A stretch of DNA of 23,193 nt from Candidatus Zixiibacteriota bacterium (GTDB lineage: Bacteria > Zixibacteria > MSB-5A5 > GN15 > FEB-12): the NCBI GenBank assembly GCA_003641345.1, contig QNAD01000002.1, forward strand, positions 1 through 23,193. The letters are read 5' to 3'. The notes under the pieces were generated by a model, which saw only the letters and a list, made by a program, of their open reading frames with translations, was not told where the DNA came from and made no database searches. Made by a program: the position numbers and the translations under genes. Positions 1,968 to 21,500 of the stretch are shown in pieces; position 1 is the first letter of the stretch, and every line of letters starts with the position of its first letter.

Positions 1968-2001
1968 TTCAATCTTTCATGTTAATAGACTTTGATGTTA
2001 T

Positions 2002-4167: not shown

Positions 4168-4186
4168 ACTACTTCCTTTGTGATAT

Positions 4187-4468: not shown

Positions 4469-4479
4469 ATTCTCCTCGC

Positions 4480-4920: not shown

Positions 4921-4972
4921 TTTATTCTCCTTTCTAAAAAGATTAACATAAAATTTAAAATGTTTTTTTGAC

Positions 4973-5332
4973 CTACCAATGACCGCCAACATTTGCCTGA
5001 GTACAATATTCAAGCTTGTCATTACGAGCCAATTCAATCGCCTCAGAAACTTTACCTTTTGACCACAATGCGGATTTTATGTCGGCAGTAGTCAGAGCAC
5101 TAAATGCTTGGGGTCCAAAATTCCCAGAAATTACTAAATCAATATTCTTCCCTGAAAGAAATTCTACCGCCTTCACACCAACACCTTGTGAAGATTTTGC
5201 ATTAACATTGTTGTCAAGAGCTTCGAAACGGTCAGTATCAGTATCATAGATCATGAAATAATTCGCCCGTCCAAAACGCTCATCAACCAGACTGTCTAAG
5301 TCCGAACCTTTTGATGAAACTGCTATTATCAT
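4973..5332 (-). CDS. NifX/NifB-type cofactor-binding protein (ORP-like), second copy
   Basis: A 119-residue member of the dinitrogenase FeMo-cofactor-binding superfamily. The start MIIAVSSKGSDLDSLVDERF, the block FGRANYFMIYD and the glycine loop LVISGNFGPQAFSAL are typical of MTH1175/ORP-like proteins. The start is supported by this family alignment; the ribosome-binding site (AGGGAG) is unusually far, about 12 bases, from the ATG. It lies between the first NifX-like gene (36 bp) and the DUF5320 gene (52 bp). Only one Cys is present, so it would hold a cofactor differently from the copy at 2002-2373. A role as acceptor or carrier of a Mo, Fe or Cu sulfide cluster is inferred from family knowledge only. 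Confidence 0.88.
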   Translation of the reverse strand: MIIAVSSKGSDLDSLVDERFGRANYFMIYDTDTDRFEALDNNVNAKSSQGVGVKAVEFLSGKNIDLVISGNFGPQAFSALTTADIKSALWSKGKVSEAIELARNDKLEYCTQANVGGHW

Positions 5333-5368
5333 ATTTTACACATTCTCCCTATATTAAAAATTTTATTG

Positions 5369-5767
5369 TTATCTTTGATTTCTTCCTCTCCGACCTCTGC
5401 CACCTCTTCCGCCTCTCCGATGACCTCGCTTGCATCCGGGCAGAAGAAAATTATTAGAAATAATTTCACCTTGAGAATAAGCTGAAATTACATCATCAAC
5501 TTCGCCACCAATCCACGGTATCAACTCAATGCCAGTAACTGAAAGCAACATTTCTGTCTCATTAGATAAAGCTCCACATATTAAAACATCAATATCTTTA
5601 CCTTGAAAATATTTGACTCGATTCTGATAATTTGAAGACGGAATACTCACAATATGCCTAGAAGATTCAACATTATCCTCAATCTCTGATATCAGTAGAA
5701 TACTTGCCGTCTCCAGTACCGGAGAAATACGATTTTTCCATAACGGAATTGCAACCTTTATTTTCAT
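5369..5767 (-). CDS. NifX/NifB-type cofactor-binding protein (ORP-like) with Arg/Gly-rich tail, first gene of the orp-like operon
   Basis: I start it at the ATG at 5767, giving 132 residues beginning MKIKVAIPLWKNRISPVLET, where family members begin. The open frame goes back to 5818, but that extension overlaps a sigma54 promoter and has no family likeness. No ribosome-binding site is visible before 5767, which fits a leaderless or near-leaderless message from that promoter. The core resembles the FeMo-cofactor-binding superfamily (DVLICGALSNETEMLL). The last ~20 residues are KRGHRRGGRGGRGRRGR-like, an RGG-type basic tail that is unusual for this family and could bind nucleic acid or partner proteins. 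It is the first gene after the activator and probably heads the operon down to 594. Confidence 0.82.
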   Translation of the reverse strand: MKIKVAIPLWKNRISPVLETASILLISEIEDNVESSRHIVSIPSSNYQNRVKYFQGKDIDVLICGALSNETEMLLSVTGIELIPWIGGEVDDVISAYSQGEIISNNFLLPGCKRGHRRGGRGGRGRRGRNQR

Positions 5768-5779
5768 AACTAATACTAC

Positions 5780-5795
5780 AGCATAATCCATGCCA
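5780..5795 (-). promoter_or_regulatory. Sigma54 (-24/-12) promoter of the orp-like operon
   Basis: On the minus strand the sequence is TGGCATGGATTATGCT, against the consensus TGGCACG-N4-TTGCW. The invariant GG (-24) and GC (-12) are exactly 10 bases apart. The neighbouring upstream gene is a sigma54 activator, and the orp operons of Desulfovibrio are known to be sigma54-dependent. The predicted transcript start is about 5769, only ~2 bases before the ATG at 5767. Confidence 0.65.
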
Positions 5796-5903
5796 CAACT
5801 TGATTTAGCACGCGTCATATCCGTGTATCATGTTGTTATATAGGTCGTTATAAGCATTATAAATAAACCGAAAAAGTTTATTAAAATCGAAATAAGATTG
5901 CTA

Positions 5904-5950
5904 TTTTGCATTGTTTTAGCGTCATATAATGCACTATTGCAATTATTGCT
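5904..5950. promoter_or_regulatory. Candidate upstream activator sites (TTGCA half sites)
   Basis: Three or four copies of a TTGCA/TGCAA-like half site (TTTTGCATTG, TGCACTATTGCAATTATTGC) cluster 135-180 bp upstream of the predicted sigma54 start, the usual distance for enhancer-binding proteins. The same word forms the palindrome TTGCA-TAAT-TGCAA before the activator's own gene. The region is AT-rich, so chance similarity is possible. Confidence 0.35.
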
Positions 5951-7280
5951 TATTTGGAATTTCTATTCCAAATTTTTTAATTTTACGCCAAAGAGTAGTT
6001 TTGTGAATACCAATATCTTCTGCTGTTTTTTTCCTGCTCCAATTGTTTTTCTTTAACGCTTTTCTCAGATATTCAGATTCCAACTCATTCATTGATGTTG
6101 GTTTTACCATAGAAGATGTTTCTTTTGGTTTGATAAATTCCGGAAGATCTTCAAGTTCAATTATTTTACTTTTACATAAAACAAAAGCATGTTCAATTAT
6201 ATTTTCTAATTCTCTTATATTTCCGGGGAAATCATAATTGATTAAAACCATAAGTGCCTCGTGAGAGATGTCTGAAATATATTTATTTTTCAAATTATTA
6301 AACCGCCGAATAAAATGTTCTATCAGCAATGGGATATCTTCTTTGCGTTCACATAGTGGTGGTAGTTTTATTCGTATAACATTTATTCTATAATAAAAAT
6401 CTTCTCTAACTTGACCGGATTTTACAAGGTCTTCAATTTTTACATTTGTTGCCGCTATAATACGAACATCAGATTTAATTGGCTTTGTCCCCCCTAAGGG
6501 TTCATATGTTCGTTCTTGTATAACACGAAGCAACTTTACTTGAAGAGCTTGAGAGATTTCAGCTATTTCATCAAGAAATATCGTTCCTTTTTCAGCTAAT
6601 GCAAATCGTCCCGGCTTATCTTTGCGAGCATCGGTAAACGCTCCAGCTTTATAACCAAACAACTCTGACTCAAGAAGAGTATCCGGAAGCGCTCCACAAT
6701 TTATAGAAACTATCGACTTTTTACTCCTCGAAGAAAGATCATGCAATGCTCGAGCAATGAGTTCTTTACCTGTTCCGGTTTTACCTTCAATGAGAACAAC
6801 ACTATCACTTTGAGCAATGCTTGGCAAACTGTCAAATATTTTTAACATTTCATTATTTTTGCTGATAATATTATGAAATGAATATTTTTTTTCTAATTCT
6901 CTTTTGAGTTCTTCTATCGCACTTAAATCTCTGAAAGTTTCAACGCCCCCAACAATATTACCGTTCTTATCTCTTAAAACAGCAGTAGATATGCTAATCG
7001 GAATTCTATTGCCGCTGGTATCAATAATATAAACTGACTGGCATACAACTGGTTTTTTTGTTTCGAATGTCTTTCTTAGAGCACAATCATTTTCACAAAT
7101 TGAAGCATGAAAAACATCACAACAGCGCTGATTTATCGCTTCCTTTTTTGAAATACCAGTAATTTTTTCTGCCGCTTTATTGAAAGATGTTATCCGCCAG
7201 TCCTTATTGACTGTAAAAACTCCCTCGGCTATCGAGTCAAGAATTACTTCGGTCGTATCGCTTTTATTTTTATTTGTCAT
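5943..7280 (-). CDS. Sigma54-dependent transcriptional activator with Cys-rich PAS domain (ORP-regulator type)
   Basis: This is a 445-residue bacterial enhancer-binding protein. Residues ~8-125 form a PAS domain with a cysteine-rich stretch (RCCDVFHASICENDCALRKTF; C53, C54, C62, C66, C80) that may bind an Fe-S cluster or sense redox. Residues ~140-375 are the AAA+ domain: Walker A GKTGTGKE, Walker B GTIFLDEI, and the sigma54-contacting loop reading GAFTDA instead of the usual GAFTGA. Residues ~400-445 are a Fis-type helix-turn-helix (NWSRKKTAEDIGIHKTTLWR). It stands just upstream of the orp-like operon with a sigma54 promoter in between, as the regulator DVU2106 does for the orp operons of D. 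vulgaris. It most likely activates those genes under anaerobic conditions. Confidence 0.92.
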   Translation of the reverse strand: MTNKNKSDTTEVILDSIAEGVFTVNKDWRITSFNKAAEKITGISKKEAINQRCCDVFHASICENDCALRKTFETKKPVVCQSVYIIDTSGNRIPISISTAVLRDKNGNIVGGVETFRDLSAIEELKRELEKKYSFHNIISKNNEMLKIFDSLPSIAQSDSVVLIEGKTGTGKELIARALHDLSSRSKKSIVSINCGALPDTLLESELFGYKAGAFTDARKDKPGRFALAEKGTIFLDEIAEISQALQVKLLRVIQERTYEPLGGTKPIKSDVRIIAATNVKIEDLVKSGQVREDFYYRINVIRIKLPPLCERKEDIPLLIEHFIRRFNNLKNKYISDISHEALMVLINYDFPGNIRELENIIEHAFVLCKSKIIELEDLPEFIKPKETSSMVKPTSMNELESEYLRKALKKNNWSRKKTAEDIGIHKTTLWRKIKKFGIEIPNKQ

Positions 7281-7565: not shown

Positions 7566-8051
7566 TCATCTATACACTAAATCTTTTTCTTTAGTATTAA
7601 TCCAAAATAATATTTTTTCGACAGCCATATCTACTGATTTTGCTACTTTTGTTGTTAGATTCTCGGAAATTGTTGTAATATCTTCTACTTCTATTGCTAA
7701 TATATCAATTTTATCGGGCATAACATAACCAAGCAATTTGCCAAATTGTATCGCTGTTGGAAGATTTATCTGATGAGAGTTAATTAGCCCATTAGACGGC
7801 GTCAGATAATCAGCATTAAAAAAATGAATAGTTCCCGGATCTACTTTTCCAGTTATAATGGAATCAACTATCAAGACTGATTCACGATTATGAAAAAAAT
7901 CAAGTAGATTAAAGCCGGCTACCGGGGCAAAAGATATTTCTACTTCTTTAGTTTCGGCATAGACGGCTTTAATTCGGTTAGCTACAGTCGGACCAACAGC
8001 ATCATCTGACAGAACTTCATTACCAAGGCAAAGAACTAATATAGGCTTCAT
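7566..8051 (-). CDS. [NiFe]-hydrogenase maturation endopeptidase (M52, HycI/HybD family)
   Basis: A 161-residue protease that removes the C-terminal tail of a hydrogenase large subunit once nickel is inserted. The nickel-sensing residues can be placed: D17 in GNEVLSDDAVG (Glu16 in HybD), D63 in LIVDSI, and H93 in NSHQ, the same position as His93 of HybD. The usual DDG reads DDA here. The gene is the last of the operon and overlaps mvhA by 4 bp, so its substrate is almost surely that MvhA, which still carries a 28-residue tail. Other maturation genes (hypA-F) are not in the window. Confidence 0.92.
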   Translation of the reverse strand: MKPILVLCLGNEVLSDDAVGPTVANRIKAVYAETKEVEISFAPVAGFNLLDFFHNRESVLIVDSIITGKVDPGTIHFFNADYLTPSNGLINSHQINLPTAIQFGKLLGYVMPDKIDILAIEVEDITTISENLTTKVAKSVDMAVEKILFWINTKEKDLVYR

Positions 8052-9532
8052 AAATTTCTATTTGCTTTTTGCACAACATCTCCAGTTACAGAATCATGCA
8101 CAATAACTTCAAGCGGCATTTTACCAAGCAAAGTATGAGTAGCACACCCAAAACAAGGATCATAAGCACGGAATGCCATTTCTATCTTATTTAAGGTACC
8201 ATCTGTTATCTCTGAACCTTTTGTAATTAATCCTTCCGCCGCCCGTTTAATTGACATCGTAATCGGGGCATTATTGTTTGTTGTCCCAACAATTAAATTA
8301 GCTTCTGTTACTATTCCGTTTTTATCAGTTTTATAATGATGCGTTAGTGTTCCTCGTGGTGCTTCAACAATACCAATCCCTTCGCCAACAATTGAAGTAG
8401 GTGGATTAAGAACATGCTCTGAGCAGATTTCATCATCTTGAGCTTGTTTTAAAACCGATTCAGAGGCAAACATAAGTTCAACTAATCTTGCCCAATGAGT
8501 TGCAAGAGTAGAATTAACCATTGTTTTACCGGAGCCATCACCAGTAAGTGTTTTATAATACCGTTCATACTCCGCTTGAGCCAGTGGGGTTGCCATACCA
8601 TCAGCAACATTCAATCGTGATAACGGTGTTGCTTTATATATCCCTGATTTCATCCCGTCAACAAAACCATGCCAACCTATATTTTTCAAATATGGATATT
8701 TCAAGTAACTGTATGATTCAACATGTTCAGCAACATGGTCAAGGTAATCGCATGGCTTATACTTGGCAAACTCTTTACCATCGGGTCCTGCTACTCGAAC
8801 CATACCATCGTAAAAATTCACATGATTATTATCATCAACTAACCCCATATTATACGTAGCATGAGCATAAATATCTGACAGAATGAGATCTACATAATCT
8901 TTATTAGCCAGAACGATATCATCAAAAACTTTCAATGAGAATTTGGAAAATTCAACCATCCTTTTCCCGATTTCAATCATCTCGGCTTGTTCTTCTTTTG
9001 ACACCCGTTTTGACATTCCTCCCGGAAGAGCAGTAACGGGATGAACCTTTTTCCCGCCGATTATTTCTATTACTCGTTGTCCATCAGCCCGCTGTTGAAT
9101 AACTTTTTTACCGGCATCAAGTCCTACCTTTGCAATTACACCAAGTATATTACGTTCTGCCGGAGGAGCATCAGGACCACACACAAAATCAGGTCCGCCT
9201 AAAGCGTAAAAATGGGTAGTATGATCTCCTGCAAAAAAGGCATTATAAACCAATTCCCTCAATTTTCTGGCAGCTGACGGAATCTCCACACCATAGACTG
9301 CATCTGCCGCTTTAACGGCAGCCATATGATGTGCATCAGGACAGACACCACAAATACGAGTAGTAATACGAGCCATTTCTTCAACTGGCCGCCCTTGAGC
9401 GAATTTCTCGAAACCGCGAAGTTCCGGCACCTGAAAATAACAGTTATCAAGTGAACCATCATCATTAATAAAAAGATGTATTTTCCCATGTCCCTCTAGA
9501 CGGGTAATAGGATCTATTAAAATCTGTCTCAT
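8048..9532 (-). CDS. mvhA: [NiFe]-hydrogenase large (catalytic) subunit, group 3c MvhA-like
   Basis: A 494-residue subunit holding the Ni-Fe active site that splits or makes H2. The N-terminal ligand motif is RICGVCPDAHH (C61, C64) and the C-terminal one DPCFGCATH (C460, C463, H466). After H466 there is a 28-residue tail to be cut by the protease encoded next. The start MRQILIDPITRLEGHGKI and RGFEKFAQGRP fit the cytoplasmic group 3 enzymes (MvhA, HoxH). Its neighbours MvhG and MvhD point to the methyl-viologen/heterodisulfide-linked 3c type. It overlaps mvhG by 4 bp and the protease gene by 4 bp. Cytoplasmic location is expected, as there is no Tat partner signal. Confidence 0.95.
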   Translation of the reverse strand: MRQILIDPITRLEGHGKIHLFINDDGSLDNCYFQVPELRGFEKFAQGRPVEEMARITTRICGVCPDAHHMAAVKAADAVYGVEIPSAARKLRELVYNAFFAGDHTTHFYALGGPDFVCGPDAPPAERNILGVIAKVGLDAGKKVIQQRADGQRVIEIIGGKKVHPVTALPGGMSKRVSKEEQAEMIEIGKRMVEFSKFSLKVFDDIVLANKDYVDLILSDIYAHATYNMGLVDDNNHVNFYDGMVRVAGPDGKEFAKYKPCDYLDHVAEHVESYSYLKYPYLKNIGWHGFVDGMKSGIYKATPLSRLNVADGMATPLAQAEYERYYKTLTGDGSGKTMVNSTLATHWARLVELMFASESVLKQAQDDEICSEHVLNPPTSIVGEGIGIVEAPRGTLTHHYKTDKNGIVTEANLIVGTTNNNAPITMSIKRAAEGLITKGSEITDGTLNKIEMAFRAYDPCFGCATHTLLGKMPLEVIVHDSVTGDVVQKANRNL

Positions 9533-10500
9533 ATCTGTTTTCTCCTGAGCATTGAATCAGCCATACTAAAACGATAAAATGTTCCAACCGGATCGACAAT
9601 TGTATTGATGATTTTTTCTATTTCTTCAGGATCATCAGAATCAATTACCGATGCCAACGCTGACGCCATTTTTGCTCCTTGATCTTTAATATTGGAAGGC
9701 AATCCGTAACATCCCCTACACGGTACTCCCGCCGAAACACATTTTGCTCCACAACCGCCCCGTGTTGCCGGGCCGAGACAAATAATACCCTGTTCTAATA
9801 AACAAACATCAGGATCTGGTACAATTTCAAATGGACGGACGAACTTTTTAATTTTCTTGACATCTTTTTTTCGTTCACATTCATCACAACAACTTTTTTC
9901 ATTCGAGCCAAGCACCGTTCCTTTCGGTGGAAGCTCTTTGCCATTTTGTAGTATATCTATCACAGCTAACACGACGGATAATATTTGATCTGATTGTGGT
10001 GGACATCCCGGTATAACATAATCTACATCTACTACCTGAGGCAATGAGCGTACTGTATTCCATAACTCTGGCAATGTCAACGTACCCTCTGGTACAATAG
10101 TCTGTGTTTGGGGATAAATATTTTCGGTATTACTTGTAGAAGGTGATTCTTTATAGGCATAATCCATAATTGATTTTTTATCATAAAGATTCGCTAAAGC
10201 AGGAATACAACCTTCCGATGCACAACTTCCGAAAGCACATAAAAGAACTGATTTTTGGCGAAGCAGTTCAGCAATTTCAAGGTTTTCTGATGATCGTATT
10301 GCTCCGTTGAATAATGTCAATGTGATTGATTTATCTTCCATCTTACGAACATCATCATACTTAAAATCCATCGCACAGGGCCAAAAAACAACATCAAAGA
10401 AATCAACAACATTTAGAATTTTATCTTCAATATCTAATATGGCGATATCACACCCTCCACATGATGCCGCCCAATAAATGGCAAGTTTTGGTTTAGACAT
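9529..10500 (-). CDS. mvhG: [NiFe]-hydrogenase small subunit, MvhG-like
   Basis: A 323-residue electron-transfer subunit with three Fe-S clusters. The proximal cluster ligands are ASCGGCDIA, FGSCASEGC and PGCPP. The medial and distal ones lie in the C-terminal third (CLLEQGIICLGP, RGGCGAKCVSAGVPCRGCYG). An extra CCDEC motif lies near residue 200. There is no Tat signal peptide, so the enzyme works in the cytoplasm. It passes electrons from MvhA to MvhD. Overlap with mvhD is 8 bp, with mvhA 4 bp. Confidence 0.93.
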   Translation of the reverse strand: MSKPKLAIYWAASCGGCDIAILDIEDKILNVVDFFDVVFWPCAMDFKYDDVRKMEDKSITLTLFNGAIRSSENLEIAELLRQKSVLLCAFGSCASEGCIPALANLYDKKSIMDYAYKESPSTSNTENIYPQTQTIVPEGTLTLPELWNTVRSLPQVVDVDYVIPGCPPQSDQILSVVLAVIDILQNGKELPPKGTVLGSNEKSCCDECERKKDVKKIKKFVRPFEIVPDPDVCLLEQGIICLGPATRGGCGAKCVSAGVPCRGCYGLPSNIKDQGAKMASALASVIDSDDPEEIEKIINTIVDPVGTFYRFSMADSMLRRKQI

Positions 10501-10966
10501 GAGTGATATCCCCCATTTCTGAAGCTACTTTATCGGCTATTTCATCCGGTTGATAGTTTAATTCCTTAAGTGCAAGCGGTCCCATCTCACGAATTTGATT
10601 AGTGAATTCTGTAATTACTTCCTGAAATATTGCTCCTTCGGAAGCAGATATCCATTCCAATCGCAAACGGTTTTCATCAATCCCGAATTCTTTAATAATT
10701 CTTTTTGTCAATGGCATTCTTCGCATGCATTTATAGTTTCCTTCTACATAATGGCAGTCACCCGGATGACACCCGCAAACAATCACTCCATCCGCTCCCT
10801 TTTGAAAAGCACTTAGAATAAATCCGGGATCAACTCTTCCGGAACACATTACCCGAATTCCAACCATATTTGGTGGGTATTTCATTCGGGATGTCCCTGC
10901 TAAATCAGCACCGGTATAACTACACCAATTACATAAAAAACCGATTATTTTTGGTTCAAAACTCAT
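10493..10966 (-). CDS. mvhD: [2Fe-2S] electron adaptor between hydrogenase and HdrA, MvhD-like
   Basis: A 157-residue protein of the MvhD/FlpD family. Cysteines lie in FLCNWCSYTGADLAGTSR, RVMCSGRVDP, GVIVCGCHPGDCHY and YKCMRR, the full family set. In the methanogen complex MvhD links the hydrogenase to HdrA through a [2Fe-2S] cluster. Here it directly follows the gene with the C-terminal half of HdrA (4-bp overlap), which is the half expected to dock it. This supports a physical hydrogenase-Hdr complex. Confidence 0.95.
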   Translation of the reverse strand: MSFEPKIIGFLCNWCSYTGADLAGTSRMKYPPNMVGIRVMCSGRVDPGFILSAFQKGADGVIVCGCHPGDCHYVEGNYKCMRRMPLTKRIIKEFGIDENRLRLEWISASEGAIFQEVITEFTNQIREMGPLALKELNYQPDEIADKVASEMGDITHV

Positions 10967-12726
10967 GATAATATCCCTTCAATTTGGGCATAAATCTGGT
11001 CATCAGTGAAATGCCTGGCAGTAATTGCACCTACCGGACAAGCCGCGACACATGTTCCGCACGCTTTACATAAAGCAGAATTTATAACCGAAACATTATT
11101 TTCATCATCAAAATCTATAGCTGTGTATGGACAGAGATCGTTGCAAATCTTACAGCCAGAACAATATTTTTCATCTATCTCGGCGTAAGCGGCATCCATA
11201 AAGATTTCACCCTGGCTCAACAATTTCAGTGCTTGTGTAGCGGCAGCTCCGCCTTGTGCTACTGAATCAGGAATATCTTTTGCACCCTGACAAGCACCAG
11301 CTAGAAAGACACCGTCAGTTGTAGTCGAAACAGGAGCAAGCTTGGGATGAGCTTCAATATACCAACCATCGGCACCAGTCGAGATGTTAAATATCCGTCC
11401 AGTCTCTTTTGCTTCCTTTTGTGATTCAAGTGCCGTACAAAGAACAACCATATCTACCGGTATCTCGCGAAACTTCCCAATTAAGGTATCTTCACATTGA
11501 ACTAACAGATCACCCTCTTTCGATCTATGCTTTGAAGCAGGAATAATCTCAGCGGCTTTTCCTCTAATTACATTAACACCTTCATCTAAAATTCTCTGAT
11601 AAAACTCTTCATAGCCTTTACCGTATGTTCGCATATCAATATATAGTTGATAGACTTCAGCATCGGTTTTCTCCACAACGAGATGAGAAAATTTAAGAGC
11701 ATACATACAACAAACCCGAGAACAATACTCATGATAATTTTTATCTCTTGAACCGACGCAATGAAAAATAGCGATCGTTTTTGGTTCTTCGCCGTTCTCC
11801 ATCAGGATTTTACCTCCTGTTGGTCCAGCCGCATTATTCATCTGTTCGAATTCTTCTGCAGATATTACATTTGGATATTTACCGTATCCATATTGTTTCA
11901 ATGGGGTAGGATCAAATGAATTAAAACCGGTTGCCATAATAATCGCACCTACGTCTAACTCTTCGACCTTATCCGTGTCATTAAAATTGATACAATCTTT
12001 CTCGCAGACATCAGCACAAACCATACAGCCACCGGTTTTGAAATGAATACAATTATCTCGGTGTATTCTTGGAACATTTGGGACTGCTTGTCTGGTCGGT
12101 ATAGTAATTGCAGCATTAGGTCCAAGATTTAATTCACGATGGCTAAGAACTCTCTCTTCAATATCCTCCATTTTAATATGATCCGTTGGGCAAATTTTTG
12201 CACAAGCACCACACAGGATACACGACTCTGTTTCAAGATTAAACGGAGTTGCTACATCACGTTCAAATCCACGGTTAACAAATGATAACGCATGAGCACC
12301 GACAACTTCATCACAAACCCGAACACATAAACCACATAGAATACAAGTATAATCACCAGTGCCCCATCGTGGTTTTTCAATTCCGAATTCTTCTGCTAAT
12401 TTTCTTAATATCGGAGACGGTGAACATGATCGCATCAACATCTGTAGATTTGTACGTCTTGCATTTACAACCCTTGGAGTGTAGGTATATACCTCTAATC
12501 CTTCCCAAACCGGATAGTTACAAGCTGTTACAATTTTAGACCATCCTTTACCATCTCTTGCTTCCACACAACAGATTCGACAAGCGGCATATGGTGTCAT
12601 ATGCGGATAATAACAAAGAGTAGGAATTGAAATTCCAATTGACTCAGCTGCTTGAAGGATATAAGAGTCTTTCTCAACTTCAAGCGGAGTTCCATCAATT
12701 TTTATTTTTACTTTTTCCACTTTCAT
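10963..12726 (-). CDS. Fusion of NuoG-type [2Fe-2S]/[4Fe-4S] domain with the C-terminal half of HdrA
   Basis: A 587-residue, cluster-rich chain. Residues 1-~80 form a NuoG/HydA-type [2Fe-2S] domain (C38, C49, C52, C69). The following segment lacks the usual His-Cys3 cluster (only C101). Residues 125-182 bind two [4Fe-4S] clusters (C128, C131, C134, C138; C169, C172, C175, C179). From ~residue 200 the sequence is HdrA from its middle onward: AITIPTRQAVPN, C226/C234/C237/C241, IIMATGF, FHCVGSRDKNYHEYCSRVCC, YGKGYEEFYQR, VFLAGACQGAKDIPDSVAQG. A C-terminal 2x[4Fe-4S] ferredoxin follows (CSGCKICNDLC, CKACGTCVAAC). The FAD-binding Rossmann start of HdrA is missing here and lies in a separate gene at 15258-16235. 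The product should be an electron hub between NuoEF, HdrBC and MvhADG. The ribosome-binding site TAGGAGA is very close to the ATG. Confidence 0.88.
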   Translation of the reverse strand: MKVEKVKIKIDGTPLEVEKDSYILQAAESIGISIPTLCYYPHMTPYAACRICCVEARDGKGWSKIVTACNYPVWEGLEVYTYTPRVVNARRTNLQMLMRSCSPSPILRKLAEEFGIEKPRWGTGDYTCILCGLCVRVCDEVVGAHALSFVNRGFERDVATPFNLETESCILCGACAKICPTDHIKMEDIEERVLSHRELNLGPNAAITIPTRQAVPNVPRIHRDNCIHFKTGGCMVCADVCEKDCINFNDTDKVEELDVGAIIMATGFNSFDPTPLKQYGYGKYPNVISAEEFEQMNNAAGPTGGKILMENGEEPKTIAIFHCVGSRDKNYHEYCSRVCCMYALKFSHLVVEKTDAEVYQLYIDMRTYGKGYEEFYQRILDEGVNVIRGKAAEIIPASKHRSKEGDLLVQCEDTLIGKFREIPVDMVVLCTALESQKEAKETGRIFNISTGADGWYIEAHPKLAPVSTTTDGVFLAGACQGAKDIPDSVAQGGAAATQALKLLSQGEIFMDAAYAEIDEKYCSGCKICNDLCPYTAIDFDDENNVSVINSALCKACGTCVAACPVGAITARHFTDDQIYAQIEGILS

Positions 12727-12730
12727 TCTC

Positions 12731-14737
12731 CTACATCACAACTTCAGTTTTTTTAGGTGAGTGGGACTGCCATAATTGTTTTGCTTTTACCTGAACAGCA
12801 TCCCCTTCATCAGTGCGTACCCGCTTGATAGCATCAAACTTGCAAACCTGATAACAGGCTCCGCACTGAATACATTTATCTTGATCTATTCTATGAAGTT
12901 CTTTTGGTTTCCCTATTATAGCATCGGTCGGACAAGGCTTCACACAGGCATGACAGCCGTTGCAGGTTTCATCAATAGCATGAGCAACTAATTCTTTGCA
13001 CACTCCCGCAGGACAACGTTTATCTTCGATATGAGCTAAATATTCATTATGAAAATAACGAAGTGTTGACAGCACAGGATTAGGAGCGGAACCGCCTAAT
13101 TGACAGAGGGAGGTGTCAATTATTACCTGAGAAAGGTCCTCAAGTGATTCAAGGTCTTCCATCTTTCCTTCCCCTTTGGTAATACGATCGAGAATATGCC
13201 ACATCGTTTTTACACCTTCGCGACATGGGATACATTTACCACAGCTTTCTTCCATCAAAAAATTAAGGAAATATTTAGCAACATCGACCATACAGGAATC
13301 CTGATCCATGACAATCATTCCACCTGAACCCATCATTGAACCGGCTTTGATTAATTCATCAAAATCAACCGGTAAATCAAGAAGTGATTTAATATTCTCA
13401 TCATCTTGGATATCACCATGTTCTACTAAAGATTGGTGAACATCTTTATCTGCGGTTTCTACAACAAGCGTTCCGCCCGATGGACCGCCGGTTTGCACTG
13501 CTTTAAATTTCTTTCCTCCGGGAACTCCGCCACCGATATCGTATAGAATTTCACGAAGGGTGATTCCCATCGGAACTTCAACAAGACCGGTATTGTTAAT
13601 CTTGCCGGTTAAAGCAAAGACTTTGGTTCCTTTTGATTTTTCTGTTCCTATACTGCTATACCAATCAGAACCCTTATCAATAATAACTGGAACATTAGCC
13701 CATGTTTCAACGTTATTGAGAATAGTTGGTTTATCCCAAAGACCGAATTCTACAGTATGTATATACTTTGCTCTTGGTTCACCAACCTTACCTTCAAGTG
13801 ATGCCATCAGAGCTGTTGATTCACCACAAACAAAAGCACCCCCGCCTCGAGAGATTTCAATATCAAAATTGAAGCCGCTACCAAGTATATTTTCACCAAG
13901 TAATCCCATCTCACGTGCAGCTTTAAGAGCAATAGAAAGATTCTTTACCGCAAGAGGATATTCATGTCGCACATAAACAAATCCCTGGTCAGAGCCAATA
14001 GTAATAGCCCCGATAATCATTCCTTCAATTACCTGATGTGGATTACCCTCAAGAATAGACCTGTCCATAAATGCCCCAGGGTCGCCCTCATCAGCATTAC
14101 AAATAATATACTTTGTATCATTCTTTGCTTTTTTGCAGGTCTCCCATTTTCTTCCAGTTGGAAACCCGCCACCGCCTCGACCTCGAAGACCTGATTTTTT
14201 AACTTCCTCAAGAATTTCATCCGGTTTTAATTCTGTAAGTGATTTAGCAAGAGCTTTGTATCCACCAAGTGTAATATAATCGTCAATTGAAGTCGGATCC
14301 ATTAATCCGTTCTTGTTAAAAATTATTCTTTTCTGGTTTTTGTAAAAAGGAATATCTTTCTCTTTTTCAATAACTACTTTTGTAGTAGGATCCCTATACA
14401 GAAGATTTTTCACGAGTTGACCATTCATAATTGTTTTTTCAACAATCATTGCAATGTTTTTCTCATTCACTTTTTGGTAAAAGATTCCATCGGGTTGAAT
14501 TACAACAAGAGGTCCTCTTTCACAGAACCCATGGCAACCAGTTGTTTTAATTTCAACTACCTTATCAAGTTTTTCTTTTTTAATCTTCTCTTTTAGTGCA
14601 GTTATTACTTTTTCACAACCACAAGCAATACATCCGGTTCCGGCACAAACAGAAATAGTTGTTTTTCTTTCATCTCTATTTTTTTTATACTTCTGCTGTA
14701 ATTGTAAAAGCTCATCAGGTGATTGTAATCGTTTCAT
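12731..14737 (-). CDS. nuoF: NuoF/HydB-like FMN- and NADH-binding subunit with extra Fe-S domains
   Basis: A 668-residue flavoprotein arranged as in HydB of bifurcating hydrogenases. An N-terminal thioredoxin-like [2Fe-2S] domain (C31, C36, then TTGCHGFCERGP) comes first. The NuoF core follows, with the NADH loop RGRGGGGFPTGRKWE and the FMN-contacting NADEGDPGAFMDR, then an SLBB region and the [4Fe-4S] motif ESCGKCIPCREG. A C-terminal two-cluster ferredoxin ends the chain (CNGCHACVKPC, CIQCGACYQVC). It oxidises or reduces NAD(H). In the HydABC and HydABCSL families this subunit is the proposed site of flavin-based electron bifurcation with ferredoxin. It lies between nuoE (2-bp gap) and the NuoG/HdrA fusion (4-bp gap), the usual E-F-G order. 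Confidence 0.93.
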   Translation of the reverse strand: MKRLQSPDELLQLQQKYKKNRDERKTTISVCAGTGCIACGCEKVITALKEKIKKEKLDKVVEIKTTGCHGFCERGPLVVIQPDGIFYQKVNEKNIAMIVEKTIMNGQLVKNLLYRDPTTKVVIEKEKDIPFYKNQKRIIFNKNGLMDPTSIDDYITLGGYKALAKSLTELKPDEILEEVKKSGLRGRGGGGFPTGRKWETCKKAKNDTKYIICNADEGDPGAFMDRSILEGNPHQVIEGMIIGAITIGSDQGFVYVRHEYPLAVKNLSIALKAAREMGLLGENILGSGFNFDIEISRGGGAFVCGESTALMASLEGKVGEPRAKYIHTVEFGLWDKPTILNNVETWANVPVIIDKGSDWYSSIGTEKSKGTKVFALTGKINNTGLVEVPMGITLREILYDIGGGVPGGKKFKAVQTGGPSGGTLVVETADKDVHQSLVEHGDIQDDENIKSLLDLPVDFDELIKAGSMMGSGGMIVMDQDSCMVDVAKYFLNFLMEESCGKCIPCREGVKTMWHILDRITKGEGKMEDLESLEDLSQVIIDTSLCQLGGSAPNPVLSTLRYFHNEYLAHIEDKRCPAGVCKELVAHAIDETCNGCHACVKPCPTDAIIGKPKELHRIDQDKCIQCGACYQVCKFDAIKRVRTDEGDAVQVKAKQLWQSHSPKKTEVVM

Positions 14738-14739
14738 AA

Positions 14740-15261
14740 TTAAACAACCTCCTCGCGTTTTACTTTGTTGACTTTTGGCTTTTTTAAATCTTCCATCATT
14801 TTATCAATTTTAGCCACAGTCATATTACCGTAATACTCCTCATTCGCTGTCACAAGCGGACCAAGAGCACAAGCACCAAGACAGTTGACTGTCTCGATAG
14901 AAAATTCACCATCCTCTGTGGTTTCCCCAACACTAATATTTAAATCTCTCTCCAATTTATCAATTATGATTGAAGCTTGTCTCACATGGCACGCTGTACC
15001 GGTGCAAACACATATATGATTTTTACCCTTAGGTTCAAGACTAAAAGTCTTATAGAAAGTTGCAACACCGTATATCTGTGCCATAGGAAGTTTCATCTTC
15101 TTGGAAATTAATTCCAACGCTTCTTTGGGGAGATATTTGTAATGTGACTGAACATCCTGCATTATCATGATCAATGCTGTTGGCTTATAATTATATTTTT
15201 TTATGATTTTGTCAATCGCATCCTTAACATCGTATGATTTTTCTACTTTGATAGTTGTCAT
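14740..15261 (-). CDS. nuoE: NuoE/HydC-like [2Fe-2S] subunit
   Basis: A 173-residue thioredoxin-like [2Fe-2S] protein. The ligands are CTGTACHV and NCLGACALGP, the C-X4-C and C-X3-C spacing of NuoE and HydC. The N-terminal helical part (ALIMIMQDVQSHYKYLP, VATFYKTF) is typical. The last ~20 residues are basic and variable. It pairs with the NuoF-like protein encoded next. Its 4-bp overlap with the upstream half-HdrA gene ties the NADH module into the Hdr operon. Confidence 0.95.
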   Translation of the reverse strand: MTTIKVEKSYDVKDAIDKIIKKYNYKPTALIMIMQDVQSHYKYLPKEALELISKKMKLPMAQIYGVATFYKTFSLEPKGKNHICVCTGTACHVRQASIIIDKLERDLNISVGETTEDGEFSIETVNCLGACALGPLVTANEEYYGNMTVAKIDKMMEDLKKPKVNKVKREEVV

Positions 15262-16235
15262 AAGCCCACCTCTTCTTCCTTATCTTGAGGCGTTGGTAAA
15301 TTTTCAGGCATCGGTTGACCTCCGGTTAAAACTGTGAGATCATGCTTTGGTCCAAGCCGGTATTTATCGCGAACATCCAAAAGACTTCCTTGACGAAACA
15401 TCTTCTCACCAAGTATCATCTTACGATTTTTTGGTGTCGGCCTGCTTGGACATGCTTCGTAACATGCTCCACAGCTATTGCATACTTCAGTATCTACATA
15501 ACGTGCTTTTTTTCGAACCTTTACTTTGAAATTTCCAATATATCCCTGTACATCTTGTACTTCAGCAAATGTCATCAGAGTAATATTGGGATGTTTACCA
15601 ACAGAAACCATCTTTGGTGTTAAAATACATGCGGCACAATCAAGCGTTGGAAATGTCTTGTCAAAATTTGCCATATGTCCACCAATTGATTCTTCTTTTT
15701 CTACTAAAATAACTTTGTAACCGGCATCAGCTATCTGTAAAGCGGCCTCTATCCCAGCTATACCAGCACCAACAATCATAACCTTTTGTTTGATTGATAC
15801 TTTACGAAGTTCAAGTGCTTCATGTAATTTTGCACGAGCAATAGCACCTTTTATCAATGCATATGCTTTTTCAGTTGCCGCTTTTCTTTCAAAAGTCACC
15901 CAGCTGACTTGCTCACGAATATTCACCATCTCAAAAAGATATTGATTAAGACCCGCATCGGTAAGAGCTTCACGAAATGTTTTTTCATGCATAAGCGGTG
16001 AACAGGCGGCAACAACAACTCGATTAAGATTGTTCTTTTTAATATCTTCTATAATCAATTCTTGTCCAGGCTCAGAACACATAAATCGATAGTTGCGAGC
16101 TACTACAACTCCAGGAAGTTTACCTGCACGTTCTGAAACATCTTGGACATCTACCATTTTTGCTATATTATTTCCACAATGGCAGACATATACTCCAAGC
16201 CGGATATCACTGTTTTGTTGATTATTTAAAATCAT
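15258..16235 (-). CDS. hdrA: N-terminal half of HdrA (FAD Rossmann part plus one ferredoxin cluster)
   Basis: A 325-residue chain matching only the first half of HdrA. It has the N-terminal cluster domain (VCHCGNNI, FMCSEPGQ, AACSPLMHEKTFR), the FAD-binding motif IVGAGIAGIEAALQIADAG near residues 155-173, VEKEESIGGHMA, LDCAACILTPKM, and one [4Fe-4S] motif (CNSCGACYEAC). It then ends with a Pro/Glu-rich tail instead of running on into the second half. Usual HdrA is about 650 residues. The missing half is found fused to a NuoG-type domain at 10963-12726, and the two break at matching points. The frame is clean and starts inside the end of hdrB (ATGA overlap), so this looks like a stable split, not decay. 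HdrA is the flavin bifurcation site in methanogens. Confidence 0.9.
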   Translation of the reverse strand: MILNNQQNSDIRLGVYVCHCGNNIAKMVDVQDVSERAGKLPGVVVARNYRFMCSEPGQELIIEDIKKNNLNRVVVAACSPLMHEKTFREALTDAGLNQYLFEMVNIREQVSWVTFERKAATEKAYALIKGAIARAKLHEALELRKVSIKQKVMIVGAGIAGIEAALQIADAGYKVILVEKEESIGGHMANFDKTFPTLDCAACILTPKMVSVGKHPNITLMTFAEVQDVQGYIGNFKVKVRKKARYVDTEVCNSCGACYEACPSRPTPKNRKMILGEKMFRQGSLLDVRDKYRLGPKHDLTVLTGGQPMPENLPTPQDKEEEVGL

Positions 16236-17119
16236 ATCAATGCCTCCCGTTCTACAGCAAAAAGTTTCTCCGGTTTAACTATCAATTTATCCAATCCCAT
16301 TAACTCCGGAGCAATACCGATTGCTATACCAATCAGATGAGTAAAATAAACTATCGGAATATTATAGTTTGTATGACAGAATGAATTAATTTTGTCTTGA
16401 TACGCCTCTACATTCATCTGGCAAAGCGGGCAAACAGTAGAAATCATCTCTGCTTCATTATCAACCGCATTTTCAATAAGATTTTTATTAAGTTTCAAGG
16501 CTACTTCTTCATCAGTCGTCATTAGCATTCCACCGCAACAACGTACTTTACTAGAATATTCTGTCGGAGTACCCCCTAAAACTTCAATTAGATGATCCAT
16601 GGTTTGTGGGTCATCAATATCATCAAAGCCATGGTGTGGCCTTACTATCTGACAACCGTAATACGGAGCAACTCTTAATCCGTTTAATGGCTTGACAACG
16701 TGCTTTTTAAGTTCATCAAGACCGAAATCATTCACTAAAATATCCAATGGATGCCTAATATTTACTATTGTATCATAAGAAAGATTCGCCGCTTGAAGAG
16801 CTTCATTTATCTTGGCTCGTTCTTTTGGATCCCACTGAATATGACGATTAGTTTTTTTCAAAATTGTATAACAACTTGAACAAGGTGCACAAACATCAAG
16901 ATTCATGTTTTGGGCAATCGCTAAATTTCGAGCAGAGATTGCATAACCAACTATTTTCTTAACCGACATATACATCGTTGCTCCGCAACAGTTCCAGTCA
17001 TCTATCTCTTTTAATCCAATTCCCAAAGCTTTGAATACTTCCCGTACAGATTTATCATACGGTGAAGCAGTATGTTCCAAAGAACAGCCGGGATAATACG
17101 CATATTCTAACATTTTCAT
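16232..17119 (-). CDS. hdrB: Heterodisulfide reductase subunit B-like (two CCG domains)
   Basis: A 295-residue subunit with two full CCG domains: YPGCSLE, WNCCGATM, CAPCSSCY; and YYGCQIV, VRCCGGML, CPLCQMN. In methanogen HdrB these bind two non-cubane [4Fe-4S] clusters that cleave the CoM-S-S-CoB disulfide. Bacteria lack that substrate. DsrC-like trisulfides, other thiols or only electron passage have been suggested for bacterial homologues. Both cluster sites are intact, so a real disulfide-type substrate is likely. It overlaps hdrC and the half-hdrA gene by 4 bp each. Confidence 0.95.
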   Translation of the reverse strand: MKMLEYAYYPGCSLEHTASPYDKSVREVFKALGIGLKEIDDWNCCGATMYMSVKKIVGYAISARNLAIAQNMNLDVCAPCSSCYTILKKTNRHIQWDPKERAKINEALQAANLSYDTIVNIRHPLDILVNDFGLDELKKHVVKPLNGLRVAPYYGCQIVRPHHGFDDIDDPQTMDHLIEVLGGTPTEYSSKVRCCGGMLMTTDEEVALKLNKNLIENAVDNEAEMISTVCPLCQMNVEAYQDKINSFCHTNYNIPIVYFTHLIGIAIGIAPELMGLDKLIVKPEKLFAVEREALI

Positions 17120-17703
17120 TCTCCCAGTTGATTAGCTTTATTAATTATCGCTCGCACTTCATCAATTTTTTTAATTTTCTTTGGTATCAAACCCATTCGA
17201 CCGCGAGAAATCATTGAAAGTCCGACGCCCATATTTTTGAAAAGTTTTTTGTAATCCGATTTTAGAAAAAAACTGATCCCCAAACCTAATTCATAGTTTC
17301 TGCCATAACGATAGATGTTATTTACAAATGCTTTTGAAAGAGCATAAACAGGAAAATTATCAGGGTATATTTTTTTCTCTATCGCTATTCGCTTTAAAGC
17401 ATACAACGTATCCGTTACCCTAATACCGACCGGACAACGAACTGTACAAGAATAGCAAGATGCACAAATCCAAATAGTTCGGCTTTGTAATATTTCAGTT
17501 AAATGTCCAGCTCGAAAAAGTGCAATAGTTTGGCGAGGAGTAATATCCATCACATCCGATACTGGGCAAGAACCTGTACAAGTACCACATTGCAGACAAT
17601 TTTTTATCTTATCCCCTTCCGGAAATGAATTTACTTGTCCCCAAAATGCGGACCGCAAATCCTCTTCTGTTCGATTTTGTGTTAACTTATTGTTTGTACC
17701 CAT
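17116..17703 (-). CDS. hdrC: Heterodisulfide reductase subunit C-like ferredoxin protein, first gene of the Hdr-Nuo-Mvh operon
   Basis: Started at the ATG at 17703 (195 residues), which has a good GGAG site five bases before it. A TTG at 17742 would add 13 residues but has no such site. Two [4Fe-4S] motifs lie in the first half (CLQCGTCTGSCP and CASCYSCTVRCPVGI), as in HdrC. The C-terminal half is helical and basic, and longer than the cores of some homologues. It carries electrons between HdrA and HdrB in the cytoplasm; no membrane segment is seen. It opens a ten-gene operon that runs to 7566 with gaps of at most 4 bp. Confidence 0.93.
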   Translation of the reverse strand: MGTNNKLTQNRTEEDLRSAFWGQVNSFPEGDKIKNCLQCGTCTGSCPVSDVMDITPRQTIALFRAGHLTEILQSRTIWICASCYSCTVRCPVGIRVTDTLYALKRIAIEKKIYPDNFPVYALSKAFVNNIYRYGRNYELGLGISFFLKSDYKKLFKNMGVGLSMISRGRMGLIPKKIKKIDEVRAIINKANQLGE

Positions 17704-17746
17704 AGTTACTCCAGTATTTTTATACGATATGATTTTTCGCAATTTA

Positions 17747-18596: not shown

Positions 18597-21500
18597 TTAT
18601 TCAAACCGAACAGCATTTGAACGATGAGTTACTGTTTTTCCACGACCTTCTAACTCAATGATAGCTTCACTACTGCCAGTTGGATTTGTTTCCATTTTGG
18701 CTTTAAAGCGATACCGTACTTCAATCTTCTGCTTACGATCAACTCTATTAAGTTTGATTTTCAGATGACCATCAGCATCAACGGTTGCTTGAACTGCTTT
18801 ACCATCAACTGAAGCACTCTCTTTTACATATTCACTATTTTGAGGAAGAATATCATCTAAGACAACATCTTCAGCCGGATAATAACCAACATTTTCAATC
18901 ACAATATGGACTTCCCAGAGATTATGTCCAGTTTGTGTTTTTGAATCTGCTTCCTGTACCAAAACAGTATCCCAAATAACCGGTTCGAGCTCAAGGATTG
19001 TAGTAGCTTCCCAGTTATTAACCGGAATCAGACTATAATCGACTTGCGAACGATTTCTTCCTTTGATAAAGACTTCAACCCGTCGATTTTGCTGCCAATG
19101 TACTTCGGAATGACCGGTATCTACAGGCTTAGTAGCGGCAAAGCCTTCATAGGACATTATAGAACTGTCAATATTATGGTTTTCAATTAACCAGTTTAAT
19201 ACTGACAATGCTCTTGCTTCGGACAGTTCCCAGTTGGATGGGAATTTGATAGTATGAATACGACGGTAATCGCAGTGTCCCTCGGCCTTGACAGTTACAT
19301 CAGAATATTTTTGAATAGAATCGGCAATCGCTTCCAAAATTGGAATTGCTTCCGGTCGCAGATACGCTTTTGATGTTTCAAAGTAGGCACCAATAATATT
19401 CATTTTAATATCAGCATCGGGCGATGTAAGAAGCGGTCCCACAGCTACTGTTGCAGTTGTAGATTTACTTGAATACTCTTTTGCGGTAGAATCGGGTCTG
19501 CCTTCCAGATAGATAGAGTTTTCAAGGAATTTACGAGAACCCGGGTCGAGGTCTTCAAGAGAATACTTTATTGATTTTTCAAATCCATCAGCACCAACTC
19601 TGAATTCATTATATAAATGTTTTCCGTTAGAACTAACTACCAGATACTCACTATCTGATTTAGATAGTTGTGTAAATTCAGGAAGAGAATCAACAATTTT
19701 CAAATTGGCTGTATTGCCACCGCCGGAATAATCAACTCTGATTTCATAATCGACTACTACACCGCTACTATCATAGGTTTTAGTTGTGTCAATCGAAGCT
19801 GATTTTATTATCGTTGCTGTTGGCACCTGTGCAGCTTTTTTATTGAGATTTAACATAGGCTGAGACGGACATACCTTGAAGATAACATAAGATTCACCAG
19901 CTTCATGTACAAAAACAAAAACAGATGCAGTCTGATCATCTGACAAATCGAATAGTTTCTCTTTCAAGTCACGAGTGTCTATCATTACTGCTCTTTGACC
20001 AGACCTGACAGTATTAAAATAGAACATCCCTTTATTGTTTACTTGTGAGTGAGAACCGTCATCAAGGAATATATCAGTACCTATCAAAGTTGTATCAAAT
20101 TCCAGTTCATTGCCTTCGTTACAATCTACAATAACTCGTCCACGAATGGATCCAGATAGTGTAGATGGAATTACATTAACACGACAGGTTGCACGAGATG
20201 GAATGAAATCATCGGCATAAGCCCATGCAATATTCTCATTAATGCCACCCATAATCCGAGTACTAAGTTGAACAGTGTAGCGCAATGTTACTTTGTCCCC
20301 AGGATCAAGATCACCTAATTGCCATATCAATGGATTTATTCCAGAAGGATCAGGAGCAATGTTTTGATCTATTAATGTTGTGCTATCAACATATTCAAAA
20401 CCAAAAGGTAAAGTGTCTAAAACATAACTGTTATTAGCGATTGTATTTGAAACATTTTCAACAACAATTGTATAATCAAAAATATCACCTGGGAATCCGG
20501 AATTGACACTTGCACGCTTAGTAATAACAAGTGGTGGAACATCTACTCCTACCACAGCTATAACAGGACCCCAAGATCGACTCAACCCATCTCCACCTCT
20601 ATCATAAAGAATCGCAGTATTAACAAATGGTTGAGAATAATCTATTCCGTGAGAAACCTCTGATAAGTATGTAAGAACTAAAGTATCAGGAAAACCAATA
20701 TCTCCAAGCTCAAACCTAATTGGATCACTTCCCGATGAATTTATAGCAACACCATCCATCATTGCTGAACCATAAATAAAGTTGAAATCATCTGGATGGT
20801 CATCAACAAGGATAGCATCTGTTAATCCAAAATTACCAGCATTTGTTACCCTGATAGTATAAGTAATTGTATCACCAGCATTAGCAATAACAGGATTGGC
20901 AGATTTTTGAATGCCAATATCCGGAGCAGTAACCAATGTGGTAACTTCTGATTCTGCATATTGGTCAGGCGGATTTGTAATAATTGCTTTATTAGGAATT
21001 ATATATCCATCAGGAGCAGATTGGTCAATCACTACTCTGAATTGCATTTTAACAGAATCAAGAGCGTTAACAGTATCAACTGACCAAATTATCATATTAT
21101 CTGTCGGATTATATACAAATGCAGACGTTGTCTGTGCCATTCCGCTATTAGATAGCTTAGGCATTGAAGATACTGCTGATTGTGCAGAACCTGAAATGTA
21201 AGCTGTCAACTCAGGAATAGTATCGTGAACGATAATATCTGTTATTGGGCCGTGTTCAGTATTACGAATTGTTACAGTATAAAGAAGTGTATCTTCGGGC
21301 GGCGCTTGTGCTTTATCAACTGCTGTAAATAATCTAAGTGCTCCGGGAGCGAAGAATCTTTGAACTACAATTTCAGCTGTTTTAGTATCTGAACCACATC
21401 CATTGCTAACAGTTAAAGTAACTGTAAAATGACCTGAATCTATATAAATATGTTGAGGGTTTTGATCTGTAACAGCTGCACTACCATCACCGAAATCCCA

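Follow-up and report, generated by a model that had tools for sequence, protein, structure and literature searches.

The window analysed here is a stretch of 23,193 nucleotides (contig QNAD01000002.1) from a Candidatus Zixiibacteriota bacterium; coordinates are positions within this window, and residue numbers are those of its own chains unless the solved HdrA structure 5odc is named. The minus strand carries a run of ten genes with overlapping or nearly abutting ends, in the order hdrC, hdrB, hdrA-N, nuoE, nuoF, a gene fusion, mvhD, mvhG, mvhA and a gene for a maturation protease. We focus on HdrA, the parts of which are encoded in two of these genes: HdrA-N, or chain N (325 residues, 15258..16235), and the 587-residue fusion, or chain C (10963..12726), in which a NuoG-like domain precedes the remainder of HdrA.

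A single HdrA2 profile of NCBIfam (777 positions) is tiled by three chains of the run, with HdrA-N covering positions 1-256, the fusion 262-640 and MvhD 647-774. Against the solved HdrA of 654 residues (5odc_A), HdrA-N matches residues 4-266 (E 2e-99) and the fusion residues 242-649 (E 4e-106). The overlap at 242-266 of 5odc_A is due to a four-cysteine motif (C169-C179) that belongs to the NuoG-like part itself and closes it; this motif resembles ferredoxin motif 1 of HdrA and was aligned with it by phmmer. Genuine HdrA sequence begins at about residue 198. This bears out the first-pass annotation, which had read the 325-residue chain as HdrA up to its first ferredoxin motif and the 587-residue chain as a NuoG-like start continued by the rest of HdrA from about residue 200, and refines the boundary to about 198. 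According to the profile and 5odc_A matches, HdrA-N comprises the N-terminal iron-sulfur domain, the GxGxxG motif, Cys200 and Cys203, the first cysteine motif of the inserted ferredoxin and a 60-residue tail, and the HdrA part of the fusion (HdrA-C, residues 198-587, 10963..12135) comprises the second motif of the inserted ferredoxin, the remaining domain for flavin adenine dinucleotide (FAD) and the C-terminal ferredoxin. The break is located between the two cysteine motifs of the inserted ferredoxin domain, and the HdrA domains (N-terminal iron-sulfur, FAD, inserted ferredoxin, C-terminal ferredoxin) follow each other in standard order across the two chains. Since a standard HdrA is one continuous chain of about 650 residues and the window has 325 and 587 residues on two, we regard this protein as a variant rather than a standard HdrA.

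The arrangement is not confined to the window. A protein search with each chain scored the candidates sharing most words with it (8000 and 7999) and listed the best 120; among these listed matches, relatives of chain C measure 579-604 residues and those of chain N 317-334 residues, and the names include KSB1, Zixibacteria, Eisenbacteria and Thermoanaerobaculaceae. As the search admitted proteins of 0.55-1.75 times the query length, a one-chain HdrA of about 650 residues could enter the chain-C list, but never the chain-N list. A scan of genome contigs, which kept at least 80 loci and whose counts are lower bounds, recovered the fusion in at least 24 further public loci, one of which (L035) ends at a contig edge. 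All 24 are metagenome bins and, taking taxonomy from the record titles, belong to 11 named phyla plus one record titled only 'bacterium'; the titles are Zixibacteria or GN15, Calditrichaeota, Aminicenantes, Ignavibacteria, Phycisphaerae/Planctomycetaceae, Acidobacteria, Armatimonadetes, Dehalococcoidia, Neomarinimicrobiota, Sumerlaeota and Euryarchaeota. Within single phyla, a match across the whole stand-alone fusion was present in 12 of 132 genomes for the phylum of L001 (leaving out G065, matched at 94-586 only) and in 2 of 251 sampled genomes for that of L016, and 16 of 247 sampled genomes of the phylum of L011 had a fusion match, two of which end early, at 552 and 512 of 584; G265 and G284 (sample for L011) and G574 (sample for L016) showed just the longer type II form (see below). 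The proposal of the first-pass annotation that the architecture is rare is refuted by these loci and by the relatives of similar length. Its suggestion to search genomes for a conserved split/fusion pair proved fruitful: chain N is encoded in the same locus as the fusion in 24 of 25 cases, the window included, the remaining one (L001) being a contig of only 5 kb.

Apparent splits of HdrA can also result from gene calling, through a selenocysteine UGA or a frameshift, and indeed HdrA appears as 194 + 453 residues in L024 and L034, with a TGA at the position of HdrA Cys197. The window has a cysteine there (Cys203) and is broken elsewhere, 2.5 kb and two other genes separate its halves, and chain lengths are closely similar among the 120 listed relatives of each chain, so that an artefact can be regarded as refuted. 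The two interrupted genes themselves (L024:5482-7440 and L034:9296-11254) contain the TGA exactly at Cys197 (LDCSA-TGA-ILTPKM), which we read as a probable selenocysteine codon; open reading frames (ORFs) in L039, L052 and L054 have sizes similar to this pattern.

The residues expected at the cofactor sites of HdrA are divided between the two chains. Conservation was read from 144 chain-N sequences (24 loci including the window and 120 listed database proteins) and 145 chain-C sequences (25 loci including the window and 120 listed database proteins). Chain N bears the GxGxxG motif of the FAD site (residues 156-161, 15753..15770), the three glycines of which are present in 144/144 sequences, and motif 1 of the inserted ferredoxin (C252, C255, C258 and C262, 15450..15482), equivalent to C246/249/252/256 of 5odc and complete in 144/144. 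Chain C bears motif 2 (C226, C234, C237 and C241, 12004..12051), equivalent to C293/296/299/303 of 5odc, together with E294 (11845..11847; E356 of 5odc), which holds the catalytic lysine, and this lysine, K345 (11692..11694; K409 of 5odc), which contacts N5 of FAD; all of these are found in 145/145 sequences. Thus, the FAD site and the inserted ferredoxin are each incomplete on either chain by itself and complete in the pair. E356 and K409 are given as the hallmark of a bifurcating HdrA in PMC12054007, and from the conserved residues FAD binding and bifurcation at the HdrA site are predicted. In the AlphaFold model of chain N alone, confidence is low at residues 192-200, 246-267 (all but one) and 285-325, i.e. 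in the Cys200/Cys203 loop, motif 1 and the tail, which fits an absent partner, short of proof. Foldseek and VIA returned mostly single-domain matches.

The two halves also diverge together. Over the 24 loci, the distances of HdrA-N and HdrA-C correlate with r=0.74 (95% 0.55-0.86), a value reached by 0 of 2000 label permutations; for the same two parts within 40 one-chain HdrAs the correlation is r=0.71 (L070_F_16049, L038_F_2817, L059_F_12919, L026_F_2 and five rows of the type III HdrA discussed below were left out of this control). HdrA-C and the NuoG-like domain on its own chain reach r=0.31 (0.07-0.55), and the difference between the two correlations was zero or below in 6 of 2000 bootstraps. 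Chain N is present in 24/24 genomes that hold the fusion, and a one-chain HdrA was seen in none of 14 of these 24, one of the 14 (G002) having an extra C-terminal HdrA fragment on another contig. From the divided and invariant motifs, the co-divergence of the halves and the 14 genomes without a one-chain HdrA we conclude that chains N and C most likely combine into a single HdrA with a single FAD site, as the first-pass annotation had supposed.

The domain grafted onto HdrA-C (fusion residues 1-197, 12136..12726) matches N-terminal domains of the NuoG/HydA type (Fer2_4, E 1e-14) and has one [2Fe-2S] and two [4Fe-4S] motifs. Its best match is the stand-alone chain 9mqx_A (E 9e-36), which according to the entry title stems from an electron-bifurcating tungsten aldehyde oxidoreductase, and its motifs are colinear with those of 9mqx_A, as in a BfuA of Type 2, which has clusters A1, A2 and A4 only. 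Both four-cysteine motifs of the graft, C128-C138 and C169-C179, are already present in stand-alone 9mqx_A, which leaves C226-C241 of the fusion without a partner in its chain; the motif on chain N would provide it. Because the two cysteine motifs are shared out in this way, one per chain in all sequences compared, the inserted ferredoxin is most likely assembled in trans. A ferredoxin rebuilt in cis, with C169-C179 paired to C226-C241 and the motif on chain N as a leftover, is favoured by the alignment of C169-C179 with HdrA motif 1 in phmmer and HMMER. We consider it unlikely, given that the motif on chain N is complete in 144/144 sequences and in the four type II N-fragments read, and that 9mqx_A, a chain by itself, carries both BfuA motifs.

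Between the halves lie nuoE and nuoF, as annotated in the first pass; the position holds, the identity as plain NADH dehydrogenase subunits does not. NuoE (173 residues, 14740..15261) is a [2Fe-2S] thioredoxin-like subunit (2Fe-2S_thioredx, PF01257, E 4e-52), as is BfuC of the NuoE/HydC type. The closest matches of NuoF (668 residues, 12731..14737) are the HydB-type chains 9mqx_B, 7t2r_B and 8a6t_B; it combines an N-terminal [2Fe-2S] motif, a domain for flavin mononucleotide (FMN) and NADH and a C-terminal 2x[4Fe-4S] part, and possesses the ligands of clusters B1-B5 including the B2 histidine, as BfuB does. The B2-cluster signature of bifurcating BfuB, H569-x5-C575-x4-C580 (12998..13033), aligns to H525/C531/C536 of A. 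mobile HydB, and the published form H-x5-C-x4-C is present in 22/22 loci with BfuB, window included; C476 of A. mobile HydB is replaced by threonine in the window as well as in 8a6t_B and 9mqx_B. The N-terminal four-cysteine motif was found in 19/22 and the C-terminal double [4Fe-4S] motif in 21/22 of these loci. The HydB-type matches and the B2 signature speak against a plain NADH dehydrogenase, and NuoEF looks like a bifurcating BfuBC (HydCB-type) core and the NuoG-like domain like BfuA, with bifurcation activity of the Bfu module being a prediction from sequence. NAD(H) and ferredoxin would then both be connected, which would keep the NADH link to HdrA proposed earlier and add ferredoxin to it, with the graft at the low-potential exit of HdrA rather than at the MvhD entry.

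Among the 24 loci with both halves, BfuB is encoded between them in 22, and BfuC as a separate gene in 17; in six (L015, L017, L018, L019, L026 and L027) HdrA-N and BfuC form a single ORF. In 17/25 loci, mvhD lies no more than 1.2 kb behind the fusion and in the same orientation. The gene fusions with BfuC and the recurrent neighbourhood of BfuB and mvhD speak for a joint complex, as does the type III insert at the site of the break (see below). One Neomarinimicrobiota chromosome record (CP070787.1) holds two split loci about 18 kb apart: in L014, hdrA-N and the fusion are overlapping neighbours without BfuBC found in the locus, and in L020 the fusion is partly masked and mvhDGA comes after it. 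In a Dehalococcoidia bin, a second BfuA-BfuC-BfuB set comes straight after the split-HdrA operon (L013:8849-12003).

The remaining genes of the run complete the picture on either side. HdrC (208 residues, 17116..17742) was identified by profile search and motif reading and has two CxxCxxCxxxC motifs, and HdrB (295 residues, 16232..17119; CCG, E 1e-26) has two CCG motifs for non-cubane clusters, so the disulfide branch looks intact. Downstream are MvhD (157 residues, 10493..10966; FlpD, E 4e-55), the [NiFe] hydrogenase small subunit MvhG (9529..10500; VhuG model, E 2e-64, below the model cut-off), the large subunit MvhA with both CxxC pairs (8048..9532; VhuA model, E 3e-118, below the model cut-off) and the hydrogenase maturation protease (7566..8051; TIGR00072, above the cut-off). 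The two CxxC pairs of MvhA together with MvhG and MvhD are those of a [NiFe] hydrogenase (Mvh), which we take to be of group 3c.

Taken together, we infer with a probability of roughly 0.7 that the operon encodes one large soluble Mvh-Hdr-Bfu complex, in which HdrA is rebuilt from chains N and C, its inserted ferredoxin is formed in trans and BfuA wires it to BfuBC; the parts suggest a single assembly in which hydrogen, NADH, ferredoxin and a disulfide are connected. In this complex, chain N would contribute GxGxxG, the N-terminal cluster and motif 1, and chain C the E/K pair, the second half of the FAD domain and motif 2, which together would give the bifurcating FAD site and, by the same pairing, the 2x[4Fe-4S] inserted ferredoxin. 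Electrons from H2 would enter through MvhAGD and then the C-terminal ferredoxin, and those of the high-potential branch would continue over HdrC and HdrB to a disulfide. In HdrABC-MvhADG, low-potential electrons leave for free ferredoxin through the inserted ferredoxin domain (PMC9012536), and as this domain is flanked by BfuA here, the low-potential stream would pass from it over A4, A2 and A1 of BfuA to the FMN site of BfuBC. There, a second bifurcation centre may split these electrons between NAD+ and ferredoxin. With the potentials given in PMC9304861 (H2 -414 mV, NADH about -280 mV, ferredoxin about -500 mV, heterodisulfide -140 mV), reduction of the disulfide would let electrons from H2 reach ferredoxin, with NADH as co-product. 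Forward, H2 and the disulfide would drive the low-potential electrons; the parts would permit the opposite direction, confurcation to H2, just as well. We put forward only tentatively that the enzyme is a doubly bifurcating hydrogenase-disulfide reductase, in which electrons below the potential of H2 go from the HdrA FAD through the two-protein ferredoxin to BfuBC, and that the break is a recurrent way of swapping the outlet to free ferredoxin for a fixed module.

The same complex could also play the opposite role, with BfuABC oxidising NADH and reduced ferredoxin and feeding mid-potential electrons to HdrA, so that it would act for the most part as a confurcase that evolves H2 or reduces a disulfide. 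Eleven split loci (L003-L007, L009-L012, L035 and L060) have extra ORFs between hdrA-N and nuoE, where the window has none; in L005 they comprise one Fe_hyd_lg_C protein (Pfam) and, by eye, PHP and HATPase proteins, and L003 is without an Fe_hyd_lg_C protein. Genes for Fe_hyd_lg_C, PHP and HATPase proteins accompany the operons of [FeFe] HydABC (FeFe-Bfu). The extra ORFs suggest a HydABC-type operon in which the catalytic domain of HydA was replaced by HdrA-C. They also favour the opposite role, as do the corresponding proposal for the Bam-Bfu enzyme (PMC9304861) and the ability of Bfu-type enzymes to work in both directions (PMC5861303). The BfuA graft, however, sits at the inserted ferredoxin and so on the exit side, and the mid-potential entry through the C-terminal ferredoxin and MvhD is intact, with MvhAG beside it. 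We regard this role as possible and somewhat doubtful.

Several observations weigh against the Mvh-Hdr-Bfu assembly. The 120 relatives of each chain are for the most part closely related, so that the counts of 144/144 and 145/145 are not independent, and the 120 database chain-N proteins were counted irrespective of a fusion gene beside them. The single-chain AlphaFold models are middling (pTM, the predicted template modelling score, 0.55 and 0.51), confirming the folds and leaving the placement of domains relative to each other unreliable. No BfuB was seen in the loci L014 and L027, the N-terminal [2Fe-2S] motif of BfuB has only three of its four cysteines in L017, L019 and L026, and in L004 a different domain stands in place of the C-terminal double [4Fe-4S]; in this protein of 1024 residues (L004:6912-9983) the pair is seemingly swapped for a GltD/NfnB-like domain, as judged by eye. 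Finally, the genomes are draft metagenome bins and matches under about 164 bits were left out, so the absence of a one-chain HdrA from 14 of 24 is weak, and one was seen in the other ten, among them one cut off at profile position 477 and one (G015) present only as a long type II protein; these counts cover genomes of relatives, as distinct from that of the window's own organism. The ten genomes would suit halves that never reassemble and act as separate proteins, for instance BfuA-HdrA-C as an electron-transfer protein, with a full-length HdrA elsewhere serving HdrBC. Such a division is very improbable in our view, since chain C is without GxGxxG and chain N without the E/K pair, and both halves are present in 24/24 genomes and co-diverge like one protein.

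On the tree of both halves (69 rows, 24 of them split), the split forms need 11 changes, 10 of which are forced by well supported branches, and constraining them to a single clade costs 686 log-likelihood units and is rejected (p-value of the approximately unbiased test, p-AU, 9e-41). The tree is a quick one, its one-chain rows were drawn from the proteins most closely related to chain C of the window, and L070_F_16049, L038_F_2817, L059_F_12919 and L026_F_2 were omitted for their long branches. Trees of single halves are similarly scattered, with 8 forced changes for the C half (no row omitted) and 2, at weak support, for the N half (without L070_F_16049 and L038_F_2817). Changes of the split state are therefore recurrent on the HdrA tree, which fits either splitting or re-fusion. 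The BfuA-domain tree has weak support and long branches, and fits one or several graft events. The split pair of L026 has as its nearest relative a one-chain HdrA of the same cluster, possibly reflecting a local origin of the split; in this cluster (L026:2-12009), from a bin titled Euryarchaeota archaeon, several HdrA paralogues follow one another, the split pair among them.

Other architectures involve the same site of HdrA. In six loci (L038, L044, L064, L066, L068 and L069) an HdrA of 1114-1161 residues has about 510-530 residues from motif 1 to the next cysteine motif; in L044 and L064 the insert consists of Fer4_20 and Pyr_redox_2 (Pfam), the make-up of GltD/NfnB. This type III insert occupies the HdrA site of the break in the window, the architecture of which looks like a two-chain counterpart, with BfuA for GltD and a broken chain. 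In the second arrangement, a type II (double) HdrA with the break and BfuA graft at the same place, L081-L085 encode BfuA-HdrA-C and then a whole HdrA in one ORF of 1074-1378 residues (the start in L085 was probably called too early). An N-fragment that lacks the N-terminal domain occurs in four of these five loci; it is joined to BfuC in L081, L082 and L085, stands alone in L084, and keeps motif 1 in all four read; mvhDGA follows in L083 and L085. L057 and L075, in which a one-chain HdrA is accompanied by BfuB and a BfuA-like protein of its own, plausibly represent an unfused stage.

HdrA and Bfu as such are known; PMC9304861 counts four families of electron-bifurcating enzymes, and these are two of them. 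HdrABC-MvhAGD of hydrogenotrophic methanogens (5odc, 8rvu) is encoded by the same parts, with GxGxxG, E356/K409 and the cluster cysteines conserved; it differs in having one HdrA of about 650 residues, whose inserted ferredoxin serves free ferredoxin, in place of two chains, a BfuA graft and BfuBC. Type III HdrA (PMC12054007; HdrA9-11, PMC9012536) likewise has a domain of an NAD(P)H module between the cysteine motifs of the inserted ferredoxin, but in one chain and with a GltD-type flavin domain, whereas the window has a broken chain, the flavin-free BfuA and adjoining BfuBC; a Pfam scan of the window's graft detected no GltD-type pair of Fer4_20 and Pyr_redox_2. The argument in PMC12054007 that the type III insert blocks free ferredoxin and brings NADH as a mid-potential donor or acceptor is the nearest reasoning that we found in the literature searched. 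The class II benzoyl-CoA reductase BamBCDEFGHI (Bam-Bfu) also unites BfuABC with an HdrA-type module, and two bifurcation events in series were proposed for it, with Bfu supplying mid-potential electrons, which could not be demonstrated (PMC9304861). Its BfuA (BamI) is separate and its partner a tungsten enzyme, in contrast to the window, where BfuA is fused to half an HdrA and the partners are a [NiFe] hydrogenase and HdrBC; no tungsten benzoyl-CoA reductase family was found among the 20 window proteins scanned, and the attachment point suggests an order opposite to that proposed for Bam-Bfu. NiFe-Bfu (HydABCSL, 7t2r) and Wor-Bfu (9mqx) share the BfuBC core and the B2 signature, and the window's BfuA is closest to 9mqx_A; as described in PMC9304861, both are without HdrA, HdrB and HdrC. 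Archaeal Hdr fusions are covered in PMC11237513. The split-and-graft form was not found described in the open full-text literature searched, as far as its available parts go.

Elsewhere in the window, a minus-strand cluster at 594-5818 encodes a pyridine-nucleotide disulfide oxidoreductase, two Nitro_FeMo-Co domain proteins, two MinD/ParA ATPases with inserted 4Fe-4S domains, a DUF5320 protein and a glycine-rich protein of 93 residues, and adjoins a PAS-sigma54 activator-HTH_8 regulator (5943-7280); its composition is probably like that of the 'orange protein' (ORP) clusters known from sulfate reducers. At 18597-22742 (minus strand) lies a protein of 1381 residues with six PKD_4 stretches, DUF11 domains and an OmpA domain, and an ORF in another frame (22670-22990) may be its upstream part, separated by a frameshift or the contig edge.

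The locus therefore joins HdrA and Bfu covalently, at a defined site and in a hydrogenase context, in many uncultured phyla. Its flavin site and its ferredoxin domain most likely exemplify the building of such units from two chains, and the compact operon makes two bifurcation sites in series testable. An annotation reading 'hdrA, nuoE, nuoF' may conceal a different reaction.

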